Below are positions 55,832-64,000 of a stretch of DNA of 64,000 nt, one piece after another. Numbering within the stretch: the first letter of the stretch is position 1; the number at the start of each line of letters is the position of its first letter. Where the stretch lies: assembly GCA_029263215.1 (NCBI GenBank), contig JAJCXY010000056.1, forward strand, positions 1-64,000. Direction: 5' to 3'. The translations under genes and the position numbers were made by a program. Source of the stretch: Acidimicrobiales bacterium. Lineage in GTDB: Bacteria; Actinomycetota; Acidimicrobiia; Acidimicrobiales; Aldehydirespiratoraceae. The notes beneath the pieces were generated by a model. That model searched no databases, was not told where the DNA came from, and saw only the letters and a list, made by a program, of their open reading frames with translations.

Positions 55832-56023
55832 CCGTCTGTCCACCCAGGGTGATAAATCCGACCCTGTTTTCGGCGGTTTGATGACGATCATTGCGATTGG
55901 GTTTCCTTTATTTAGGTAGCATTAACCCATCTTGCGCCGAACTCCACTAAAACAGGTGACCACGGTCAAGGCGCGCCGGTTTCGTTCCGAAGCCATACGC
56001 GGAGTCCTGCCCCGGAGATGAGA
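55832..56023 (+). promoter_or_regulatory. AT-rich leader of SLH-CAP gene
   Basis: 192 bases. TGGGTT (55898-55903) and AACCCA (55924-55929) form arms around an AT-rich stretch with TAGCAT (55917-55922), a TANNNT candidate -10; TGACCACGGTCA (55957-55968) is a second small dyad. No clear -35, no known riboswitch recognised. Confidence 0.35.
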
Positions 56024-57031
56024 ATGCGTCGACGTATCGGTCACATACCCGAGATTCTGGCTAGTGCCGTTCTCGTCGTGTCGCTGTTTTCGGCCACGCC
56101 TGCCGGAGCGGTAGGCGGGTTCGGCGATGTCGGCCCCTCGGAGTTCTACAGCGAAGCCGTGCAGTGGATGGCCGACGAGGGCCTCACTCAGGGAACATCG
56201 CCAGGGTGCTTCTCCCCTGCCGCCACCACCACCCGCGGCGAGGTGGCGGTGTTCCTGCACCGGTATGCCGGCACTCCGTCCGGAGCGACGGCGAACTTCG
56301 TCGACGTCGATTCCTCCGACTTCTTCGCCGCTGCAGTCGGGTGGATGGCCTCCACCGGCATAACCACGGGCGCCACGCAACACACCTTCGAGCCGCACCG
56401 CTCTGTCACCCGTGGCGAGATAGCGGTGTTTCTCCATCGCTTCTTCGACACGCCCGACGGCGGCGGCGAGCCCTTCTCCGATGTCGGCCCTACCGACTTC
56501 TTCGCCGATGCCGCGGCATGGATGGTCTCCAGCGGCATCACCACCGGCACCTCCAGCACCACCTTCCACCCCGCTCGCCCGGTCACCAGGGGCGAGCTGG
56601 CAACCTTCATGTACCGCGTGAGCGACTCGCCTCCGGTGACTCTGTCGGTCGACGGCGTTTGTGGCGCGGCGGTCGACCCCGTGCTCTCCGAAGCAGAGGC
56701 CAGGTCCTGGGCCCTGCTCAGCGACCTCCGGGCCCATGTCGGTCTTCCCGCCCTGCCGCGTGATGCTTCGATGGATGCCTTCGCCCGGGATTGGTCGGCC
56801 ACCATGGCAAGCAGCGGCAGTTTCGCCCACAGTGGAGGCCCGTTCGGCGAAAACATCGCCTGGTGGAGCAAGGCGAGCGCAACTCCGGCTGATGCGGCTG
56901 ATCGGCTGCACGATCTCTGGGTCAACAGCCCTGGCCACTACGCCAACATGACCAATGGCCGCTACACCGAGGTGGGTGTCGGTTTCTGGCAGAGCACCGA
57001 CGGCTGGCACGCGACCCACGTCTTCCGCTGA
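56024..57031 (+). CDS. Exported protein with three SLH domains and a CAP (SCP/PR-1) domain
   Basis: 335 residues. Signal peptide (about 1-29, ending PAGA). SLH repeats about 32-85, 90-145 and 150-205 (FGDVGPSEFYSEAVQWMADEG and its like, each closing with TRGE-A-FLHR). CAP domain 220-335 (RDWSATMASSGSFAHSGG; NSPGHYANMTNGRYTEVGVGF). SLH binds secondary wall polymers. GGAG 6 bases before the ATG at 56024 favours it over 56018. Confidence 0.88.
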   Translation: MRRRIGHIPEILASAVLVVSLFSATPAGAVGGFGDVGPSEFYSEAVQWMADEGLTQGTSPGCFSPAATTTRGEVAVFLHRYAGTPSGATANFVDVDSSDFFAAAVGWMASTGITTGATQHTFEPHRSVTRGEIAVFLHRFFDTPDGGGEPFSDVGPTDFFADAAAWMVSSGITTGTSSTTFHPARPVTRGELATFMYRVSDSPPVTLSVDGVCGAAVDPVLSEAEARSWALLSDLRAHVGLPALPRDASMDAFARDWSATMASSGSFAHSGGPFGENIAWWSKASATPADAADRLHDLWVNSPGHYANMTNGRYTEVGVGFWQSTDGWHATHVFR

Positions 57032-61046: not shown

Positions 61047-61247
61047 TCAATACCTGTCGTCGGGCTCTTCGAGCAGGTGGCTCGCCTTCTCGACCGCTCG
61101 CCTCGCCCTGGTTATCCGCTTTTCGTCGATCGGTAGCTCTGTACCACCGGCATCGATCGAATCTCGGAGTCGGGCTATTGCCAGATCGGCCAACTCCTCA
61201 CCGATCGCTTCGAGTCGGCCTCTGATCTCGTCGAATTCCCCTGCCAT
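61047..61247 (-). CDS. Small helical protein, hypothetical
   Basis: 66 residues, nearly all helix (FDEIRGRLEAIGEELADLAI; ITRARRAVEKASHLLEE). No family recognised. ATG 7 bases after TACGGT. Its start is divergent from the cysteine-rich gene and only 38 bases away. Confidence 0.55.
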   Translation of the reverse strand: MAGEFDEIRGRLEAIGEELADLAIARLRDSIDAGGTELPIDEKRITRARRAVEKASHLLEEPDDRY

Positions 61248-61254
61248 ACGGGGC

Positions 61255-61278
61255 ACCGTATCGGTCGCCGGGTACGGT
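61255..61278 (+). promoter_or_regulatory. Pair of divergent leaderless -10 boxes
   Basis: TACGGT on each strand (61255-61260 minus, 61273-61278 plus), each 7 bases from its own ATG. ACCGTA...TACGGT also forms an inverted repeat of 6 bp arms. Each -35 would lie inside the other's transcript. Confidence 0.45.
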
Positions 61279-61285
61279 CCCGGCC

Positions 61286-62038
61286 ATGAGCGATGTACCA
61301 CCCGATCTGCATGAGTGGGTCACCTTCGCCGACGAGGACGGCGACACCTGGCAGTTCGACGTCACCTTCCTCACCAGCAACTACGGCTGTATTTACGGGC
61401 GCGGGTGTCCGGGGGTGTTCACGGAGCTCGCCGCGGAGTACGAGCACGGTTGCTGCACCTACGGCGCCCACTTCATCGACAAGAACGACCGCCAGTCGAT
61501 TCGACGCAAGATCGAACAACTCGAACCCCATGAGTGGGAGTTCTCGGATCGAGCCGAGGAGATGGGCGGCGCGATCTACAAGAACGATGATGGCGATTGG
61601 GTCACCCAGTCGGTCGAAGACGCCTGCATCTTGCTCAACCGCCCTGGGTTCGAACACGGCGCCGGGTGCGCTCTTCACCAGGCGGCCCAACGTCGGGGCG
61701 AGCGCCCGATCGACTGGAAACCCGATGTCTGCTGGCAGGTTCCACTCCGCTTCGACGACTCCACCGACGACAACGGGCACACCACGTTCATCCTGCGCGA
61801 GTGGAAACGCCGCGACTGGGGCGAGGGCGGAGTCGAGTTCGCCTGGTGGTGCACCGACGATCCTCTGGCCTTCGGCGAAGACCGTCCGGTGTGGAAGAGC
61901 CTGCGCGAGGAGATCGTCGAGTTGGTCGGCGAGCATCCCTACCGTCGCCTCGTCGACTACCTGATCGCCAGAGCCGACGACGCGGTCCCTCCGGTGTTTC
62001 TCCCCCACCCTCAGGTGCGCCGCCACGGGTCCGAGTAG
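61286..62038 (+). CDS. Cysteine-rich conserved hypothetical protein (DUF3109-like)
   Basis: 250 residues. Conserved Cys cluster YGCIYGRGCPG and YEHGCCTYGAHF, then GFEHGAGCALHQAA, KPDVCWQVPLR and AWWCTDDP. About eight Cys suggest an iron-sulfur or zinc site, as in the DUF3109/YkgJ group. I recognise the pattern from other Actinobacteria. Function unknown. Confidence 0.65.
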   Translation: MSDVPPDLHEWVTFADEDGDTWQFDVTFLTSNYGCIYGRGCPGVFTELAAEYEHGCCTYGAHFIDKNDRQSIRRKIEQLEPHEWEFSDRAEEMGGAIYKNDDGDWVTQSVEDACILLNRPGFEHGAGCALHQAAQRRGERPIDWKPDVCWQVPLRFDDSTDDNGHTTFILREWKRRDWGEGGVEFAWWCTDDPLAFGEDRPVWKSLREEIVELVGEHPYRRLVDYLIARADDAVPPVFLPHPQVRRHGSE

Positions 62039-62126: not shown

Positions 62127-63062
62127 GTGACCGGCTTTACCTCAGAGGACATCAACGCGGCTGCCGAGAAGGCAGGAATGATCTTCCCCGCCTACGTCAT
62201 CGACCAGCTCGTAGCAGCCATCGACGCGGGCAAGCACGTGATTCTCACCGGCCCTCCTGGCACCGGGAAGACCACCCTCGCCTACCTCGCCTCGGAGGTC
62301 GCCCGACATGCCATGTTCTGCACGGGCTTCCTCCCGACGACGGCCACCACCGAGTGGACCACGTTCGAGACGATCGGCGGCCTCCAGCCCACCGCAGACG
62401 GCCTGATATTTCGCCCCGGACTCTTCGTCGAGGCAATCGAGAGCGGCCGTTGGCTCGTCATCGACGAGCTCAACAGATCCAACTTCGATCGGGCATTCGG
62501 CCAGTTGTTCACCGTGCTCTCGGGTTCAGCGGTGGTACTCCCGTTCAAGCGCAAGGGCCAAACATTCCCTCTCGCCCTGGTTCCGAGCGGAGTTGAGGCC
62601 CCCGACGAGACCGACGTGATCCGGGTGCCGGCCAACTGGCGCATCATCGCCACCATGAACGTCTTCGACAAGAACCTCCTCTTCGAGATGTCCTATGCCC
62701 TCATGCGACGGTTCGCTTTCATCGAAGTCGGGTCGCCGTCAGAGGAGGCCTACCGCCAACTCCTCGATGGAAAGGGCGAAGTCGTGCAACGCCTCCTGCC
62801 CTTGCGCGAGTTCACCGATCTGGGCCCGGCGGTCTACCTCGACGCGGCCAAGTACGCGGCGCGCCGGGCACGAGACGGGATCACCGAGTCCCGCCTCCTC
62901 TACGAGGTCTTCTACGCCTACTTTCTGCCCCAGTTCGAGGGCATGGAGGAGAGGCGGGCCATGACCCTCTACCGCACGGTCGCCGCCCATCTCGACGCGC
63001 CCGAGCAACTCGAGGCGCAGCGCACGATCTCAGATGTGCTCGGTGTCGAACTGGTCGTATGA
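62127..63062 (+). CDS. McrB-like AAA+ ATPase
   Basis: 311 residues. Walker A GPPGTGKTT, Walker B LVIDELNRSNFDRAFGQ, sensor region IIATMNVFDKNLLFEMS in the place of the McrB MNxxDR motif, Arg finger ALMRRFAF. No N-terminal DNA-recognition domain. McrB-type GTPase/ATPase rings load a McrC nuclease. AAAGGA ribosome site before GTG; overlaps the next gene by 4 bases. Confidence 0.8.
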   Translation: MTGFTSEDINAAAEKAGMIFPAYVIDQLVAAIDAGKHVILTGPPGTGKTTLAYLASEVARHAMFCTGFLPTTATTEWTTFETIGGLQPTADGLIFRPGLFVEAIESGRWLVIDELNRSNFDRAFGQLFTVLSGSAVVLPFKRKGQTFPLALVPSGVEAPDETDVIRVPANWRIIATMNVFDKNLLFEMSYALMRRFAFIEVGSPSEEAYRQLLDGKGEVVQRLLPLREFTDLGPAVYLDAAKYAARRARDGITESRLLYEVFYAYFLPQFEGMEERRAMTLYRTVAAHLDAPEQLEAQRTISDVLGVELVV

Positions 63063-64000
63063 GCGTCGAAGGCACCGACCTGTTCGCCTCGTCGCTCGAA
63101 TCGACGGCCGAACTCTGGCGAAGGCTTTCGCGACCCTTCGACATGGGGCCGACGGTCGACGCTCTCCTCGGGCTCTCCCCCGATGTGGTCGAGCAGTTGG
63201 CCGGTGTATTGGTCGCCACCTGTGACGAGGCGGAAGCGCTCATCAGTGGCATGCCGCGCACCCTGCGGAATCTGAGGACCGCCATCGGCTCAAACCACGA
63301 ACGGTGTTACGGAGAGCTCAGGGGACCGGTTCAGTGGTCCGCCACTTTCGCCGCCCAGGGCTCGAGCATGGGCAACAAGGACGTGTATGTGTGTGCCTCT
63401 CCGAGGCGGGCCTACGACATCGAAGAGAACCGGGTGCTCGTGGGAGCCCTCAGAGCGGTGGTCGAGGCCGGATCACACGTCGAGAAGGTCGACGAGGACA
63501 GCTACGAAGACGAAGGCCTACGGCGCGCCCGCGACAACGCTCGCCTTGCTCGGCGCTATCTCGATCATCGGTCACTCGAGGGCATCCAGCTCGACGGAGC
63601 TCCCTCCCCTCGTGCGATCAAGCGAACGCGAGGCGGCAAGCACGCCGGTTCGTATCGGGCTGCTCTGGCGATGCTCGAAAGGGTGAGTGAACCCCTGTCG
63701 CTTTCGGAGGTGGCTCCTTTCTGCGACCGCAGGACCCGCGTCCAACACGGTCTCCTCGTGGCCCTCATCGATGAACTCGAGTCGCGAGGTCTGCGGGTTC
63801 CTGCACTGAGAGCGGAGTCCGGTTCACTCTTCGCGGGACCGGTGGAGTACATCCATCCACGACGACGAGGCGAACGAACGAAGGTGCACGGCGTACTGAT
63901 CGGCAATGTTCTCGTGGACATACCGGATCGGCTGAAAGTCAGAGACCGCACCCATGCCACCGCCGAACTCGCGGCTCGTGCCCAGGGCCGGAAGGTGGTG
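63059..64000 (+). CDS. DUF2357-like McrC-type partner, truncated by window end
   Basis: Partial: 314 residues, no stop before the edge. LRGPVQWSATFAAQGSSMGN and ASPRRAYDIEENRVLVGALR match the beta-rich DUF2357 region that precedes a PD-(D/E)xK nuclease in McrC-like partners. KRTRGGKHAGSYRAALAML follows. The nuclease would lie outside the window. ATG overlaps the ATPase stop (ATGA). Confidence 0.62.
   Translation, partial: MSVEGTDLFASSLESTAELWRRLSRPFDMGPTVDALLGLSPDVVEQLAGVLVATCDEAEALISGMPRTLRNLRTAIGSNHERCYGELRGPVQWSATFAAQGSSMGNKDVYVCASPRRAYDIEENRVLVGALRAVVEAGSHVEKVDEDSYEDEGLRRARDNARLARRYLDHRSLEGIQLDGAPSPRAIKRTRGGKHAGSYRAALAMLERVSEPLSLSEVAPFCDRRTRVQHGLLVALIDELESRGLRVPALRAESGSLFAGPVEYIHPRRRGERTKVHGVLIGNVLVDIPDRLKVRDRTHATAELAARAQGRKVV

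Follow-up and report, generated by a model that had tools for sequence, protein, structure and literature searches.

A nuclease-less McrBC-like gene pair at a fixed chromosomal site in Acidimicrobiales, possibly a domesticated motor

At the right end of the stretch of Acidimicrobiales DNA analysed here (the window, bases 1-64000 of a 137,799-base contig), a gene for a McrB-like AAA+ NTPase of 311 aa (62127-63062, + strand, GTG start) overlaps by 4 bp (ATGA) a gene for a McrC-like, DUF2357-type partner (63059-64000 and on to contig position 64066, + strand, ATG start). The question is whether this pair is a restriction system or has come to do something else. A sequence-only reading had taken it for a truncated type IV restriction module. 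Both open reading frames, the overlap and the 314 partner residues inside the window were exactly as that reading described them; the truncation, however, was an effect of the window edge, since the 3' end of the partner is readable on the contig, where 21 further residues and the stop (64066) complete a protein of 335 aa. The sequence past the edge had been singled out as the place where a PD-(D/E)xK domain or extra genes might be found. These 21 residues are followed, about 65 bases downstream of the stop, by a gene for a ClC-type channel and by no nuclease, which rules out a missing nuclease beyond the window. The partner is no chance reading frame either, because it has orthologues of 268-350 aa, found at 32 GTDB loci and also in 19 of the 61 relatives.

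The assignment of the ATPase to the McrB type was borne out. Pfam returned AAA_5 (2.3e-17), the top NCBIfam match was McrB PRK11331 (3e-11, although far under the cut-off of that model), and McrB chains gave the sole clear match among solved structures (6hz4, 2.5e-12). In the alignment the McrB-type AAA+ motifs are all present. These are a Walker A motif GPPGTGKT (residues 42-49, 62250-62273), almost all positions of which are invariant across 21 orthologues, a Walker B motif with its N-R extension, WLVIDELNR (residues 109-117, 62451-62477), the McrB signature loop MNxxD, here MNVFD (residues 177-181, 62655-62669), and an arginine pair, R194-R195 (62706-62711). N116 and R117 are the counterparts of N282 and R283 in E. 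coli McrB, and R194-R195 are equivalent to its sensor-2/arginine-finger residues R348-R349 (roles described in PMC6624300), whereas E298 of the E. coli protein is replaced by Ser at the aligned position. The loop is of the NxxD form as opposed to the NxD form of CoCoNuTs (PMC7680126, PMC11090510). Identity to the orthologues ranges from 68 to 92%. The protein consists of the AAA core alone and starts about 40 residues ahead of Walker A; it therefore has no N-terminal reader domain, in agreement with the sequence-only reading. A Foldseek search with the predicted fold placed the MoxR-type proteins NorQ and CbbQ alongside McrB, and since the model fits these as well as McrB, a protein substrate is possible.

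The partner was harder to place by library searches. On its own it matched no family in Pfam, NCBIfam, PADLOC or PHROG, and none of 30 orthologues reached the Pfam cut-off for DUF2357 (PF09823) or McrBC (PF10117). PF10117 was touched by one of the 30 (E 0.39) and DUF2357 by none, so that the DUF2357 profile check proposed beforehand came out negative. A PF09823 search across the class was empty but carries no weight, its control being empty too, while an intermediate sequence (P0004) matched both PF10117 and DUF2357 weakly (0.0023 and 0.0081). Structure and profile evidence nevertheless upheld the DUF2357/McrC-like assignment. An AlphaFold2 model of an orthologue 80% identical to the partner (L048; pLDDT 91.5, 30 orthologues as input) matched the PDB with probability 1.00 for McrC chains only, these being the four best matches (6ut6_G 1.6e-4, 6hz4_M 1.9e-4, 6ut7_G 7.5e-4 and 6ut5_G 1.3e-3). 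All four are McrBC entries and fit the McrC subunit, with 6ut5_G named McrC. The TM-scores were low (about 0.3), and the likeness is therefore one of local-fold homology rather than global superposition. In a profile-profile comparison with 22 McrC proteins the partner scored 56.1 (P 1.4e-6), compared with a maximum of 21.3 in 40 column shuffles.

The best-conserved region of the partner is a stalk and tip (residues 75-118) carrying the finger-tip motif RGPVQWSAT (residues 88-96, 63320-63346; RGPxxWSET in orthologues), which was located by both alignment and model. This finger, two strands with a loop-helix-loop between them, is the counterpart of the tip with which McrC plugs the pore of McrB (PMC7680126), and continued entry into the ATPase ring would lead one to expect such conservation. 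It is followed by a DxxENRVL motif (residues 120-127, 63416-63439) aligned to D..NRiL of McrC. A finger-bearing McrC-like partner is, in other words, encoded in the operon of the ATPase. The C-terminal region, delimited by the model and the profile alignment (residue 215 to the end, 63701-64000 within the window), has the order helix, strands, helix, strand, with LFAGPVEYIHP at 63827-63859. It is compatible with a PD-(D/E)xK core lacking catalytic residues, an uncertain fold assignment given that different alignments place the nuclease strands differently within the last 100 or so residues. The C-terminal end is also the least-conserved part of the partner, the N-terminal tail excepted.

With regard to the nuclease site itself, neither D nor K was found in the D-x-K columns of the McrC alignment in any of the 30 orthologues, and in 19 of them proline occupies the aspartate column. 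The placement of the catalytic columns is uncertain (GPVEY against DVKYK, or VLVDVP against VLDAKY); with the latter alternative one Asp is retained, and Lys is still missing. The conclusion that the site was lost does not depend on the placement, because 28 of the 30 lack any [D/E]xK throughout the C-terminal third, and the DRK and DHK of the other two lie away from the aligned site. From these alignments, the catalytic D/D/K of McrC is evidently lost from the partner, which would leave it without an active PD-(D/E)xK nuclease.

A search of plasmids with the partner matched proteins of haloarchaea and Priestia. The partner profile matched that of 11 plasmid McrC-like partners (E 1.3e-18), more strongly than it matched McrC. 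Those whose surroundings were read are encoded directly behind an AAA ATPase gene, and these pairs resemble the window pair in having both subunits in the same gene order. The plasmid proteins are longer (ATPases of 391-1285 aa, partners of 421-465 aa), an EVE reader domain is present in two of the three ATPases scanned and an RPD...ExK motif in 10 of the 11 partners, and several neighbourhoods hold restriction, PglZ or methyltransferase genes. The window pair, by contrast, lies on the chromosome in a syntenic position and lacks both reader and nuclease. Plasmid ATPase domains scored 154-222 bits with the ATPase profile of the window family, compared with only 27-48 bits between this family and classical McrB, and in a quick ATPase-domain tree with long branches the window family and the plasmid ATPases stood apart from classical McrB (SH-aLRT 98). 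A genome of the window's own family that lacks the pair (G001, contig 39) holds a separate McrB-like ATPase of 558 aa overlapping a partner of 416 aa (L142:4001-6888). The latter has a similar tip motif, GGIRWSET, and a nuclease-like ECK motif (LLECKWS), the two genes adjoin a convergent N6/N4 DNA methylase gene, and this is a restriction-type cousin of the window pair. Since the relatives keep a cutting motif, the ancestor was probably a cutting form whose site the window form later lost, the direction of this change being our inference.

The surroundings of the pair are those of an ordinary chromosome. In the window's family and several others it is flanked by a DUF3109-like gene (61286-62038, + strand) and a ClC (or BipA) gene, and the neighbours at the locus comprise fbiC, LOG-family, DUF3109-like, ClC, RNase D-like, rhodanese, MobA-like, DUF3151 and pyruvate kinase genes. 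Such neighbours, fbiC and pyruvate kinase among them, rule out a defence island at this locus. The DUF3109-like gene is found in 50 of 61 relatives, with and without the pair, which dismisses it as a third component, and genomes without the pair likewise have the RNase D-like gene, which lies at a distance of 2 kb. Among these housekeeping neighbours we found no companion nuclease tied to the pair, and no VWA gene among those annotated. Nearly all members of the order encode the cysteine-rich DUF3109-like protein, many of them twice, the second copy lying elsewhere and being about 43% identical. Between the LOG-family and DUF3109-like genes, a protein of about 66 aa without a Pfam match (61047-61301, - strand) is conserved in position across the order. 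Further upstream, a gene unrelated to the pair (56018-57031) encodes three S-layer homology domains and a CAP domain.

The pair has been retained in 19 of the 61 relatives. In the genomes without it, two of which share a genus with two carriers, the flanking genes are joined and the empty site is clean. The idea that the pair might be conserved housekeeping in all relatives holds for the site and fails for the genes, which are absent from about two thirds of the relatives sampled. One decayed copy was found (L040:9153-10688, genome G027), in which the ATPase has frame breaks and a stop and the partner a frame break and a missing middle, while the flanks are intact. In another genome (G047) the ATPase is present yet frame-broken, probably through an assembly error. 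On the RNase D tree the pair was gained or lost at least six times on supported branches. ATPase distances correlate with those of the neighbours (LOG 0.84, RNase D 0.80, ClC 0.87), values that none of 300 permutations reached. The median identity of the ATPase (73%) is on a par with that of pyruvate kinase and fbiC at the locus, that of the partner being 38%, and dN/dS was about 0.02-0.06 for the ATPase and about 0.06-0.2 for the partner. Across Acidimicrobiales, the pair thus occupies one syntenic site, is vertically inherited under purifying selection and has been cleanly lost several times. It was not found beyond the order in 396 genomes of the phylum (five candidates scored per genome). 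The 32 GTDB loci are all from MAGs, nearly all titled Acidimicrobiia or actinobacteria. One MAG titled Acidobacteria (L052) is probably mislabelled, since both its gene content and the RNase D tree place it among the Acidimicrobiales loci. A phage or viral origin was ruled out, as no relatives of the partner were found in phages and none of the ATPase in viral contigs.

A complete partner, the loss of both site and reader and a fixed locus together mean that the pair is not a truncated restriction module, and the type IV restriction role attributed to it does not agree with a complete partner without a nuclease active site at one vertically inherited site among housekeeping genes. A complete partner without a nuclease was also the outcome that the sequence-only reading had itself set as refuting it. 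Compared with classical McrBC (E. coli, Thermococcus gammatolerans), the ATPase shares the AAA+ NxxD loop and the paired arginines, and the partner shares the finger tip, the D..NR motif and a McrC-like fold; unlike classical McrBC, the pair lacks a reader domain and the catalytic D/D/K of McrC. In some CoCoNuTs, McrC has a likewise inactivated PD-(D/E)xK fold, always with a HEPN domain or other nuclease alongside (Bell et al. 2024, PMC11090510). CoCoNuTs, however, have an NxD loop and coiled coils, whereas in the window pair the loop is NxxD, a coiled-coil extension is absent and the housekeeping neighbours include no companion nuclease, and we rejected CoCoNuT membership on these grounds. 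We found no description of the window pair's family in the open-access literature.

What, then, might the pair do? Restriction of modified DNA is beyond it, since both the reader domain and the cutting site are missing. Reader and nuclease are gone, motor and activator are under selection at a fixed site, and loss is repeated; the best reading of this combination is a domesticated, non-cutting McrBC motor with an optional host role, for which we see roughly an even chance. The AAA+ subunit would form an NTP-hydrolysing hexameric ring, and the finger of the McrC-descended, nuclease-dead partner would insert into this ring and stimulate hydrolysis. The assembly would most likely act as a non-cutting, NTP-driven translocase or remodeller for the host, its probable substrate being DNA or nucleoprotein, engaged through the C-terminal fold that survives in the partner. 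Somewhat more tentatively, an ancestral Acidimicrobiales lineage may have acquired a McrBC of the plasmid type, lost its reader and nuclease and retained the whole motor, ring and McrC activator together, for chromosomal housekeeping; we found no description of such a cut-free McrBC translocase. Counting against a host role, the pair is dispensable, as judged by its limited retention, its repeated gain or loss and the decayed copy, and patchy retention is also typical of defence genes.

This patchiness is one reason to consider defence without cutting, in which ring and finger would load on foreign DNA, with the inactive domain as a DNA grip, and either obstruct it or bring in a nuclease from another locus. 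Several of the closest plasmid relatives stand among restriction genes, methyltransferases and PglZ included, which points the same way, and so do the CoCoNuTs with an inactive McrC nuclease, although these bring nucleases of their own (PMC11090510). We nevertheless regard this explanation as unlikely: the pair has no reader domain and no adjacent nuclease gene tied to it, it sits at a single fixed locus of vertical descent rather than in islands, and its ATPase equals pyruvate kinase and fbiC of the locus in conservation. Active type IV restriction through a non-canonical nuclease site seems very improbable. The C-terminal secondary structure would fit a PD-(D/E)xK core, and weak viral matches were to VRR-NUC and other nucleases, but none of the 30 orthologues has the catalytic lysine at the aligned position, proline fills the D-x-K aspartate column in most of them, and PADLOC has no match for the partner.

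MoxR partners typically have VWA domains, whereas the partner here is McrC-like and has no annotated VWA neighbour, and the pair was rejected as a MoxR ATPase with a VWA partner. The motor might still act on protein in the manner of NorQ, CbbQ or PcdA, with the McrC-like subunit as an adaptor. The Foldseek result and the poor conservation of the partner's C-terminal end would suit this, as would PcdA of Staphylococcus aureus, a McrB-family ATPase moved away from restriction and co-opted to cell division (PMC10602043). However, two McrB features, the MNxxD loop and the DExNR extension of Walker B, are retained in the ATPase. PcdA carries EVE domains, its Walker motifs are degraded and it has no McrC, unlike the window ATPase with its intact motifs, its lack of EVE and its conserved McrC partner (PMC10602043). 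A protein-directed motor is, in our judgement, distinctly unlikely.

McrB is an unusual AAA+ GTPase whose role has so far been interpreted almost only through DNA cutting. If the domesticated, non-cutting motor is the right reading, a ring and activator still under strong selection after the loss of the nuclease would separate the motor from cutting, and non-restriction action of McrBC motors would become directly testable. The pair would then be a case that retains both subunits, beside PcdA, the only co-option that we found described. It would also serve as a warning that McrBC-like matches need not be defence genes.
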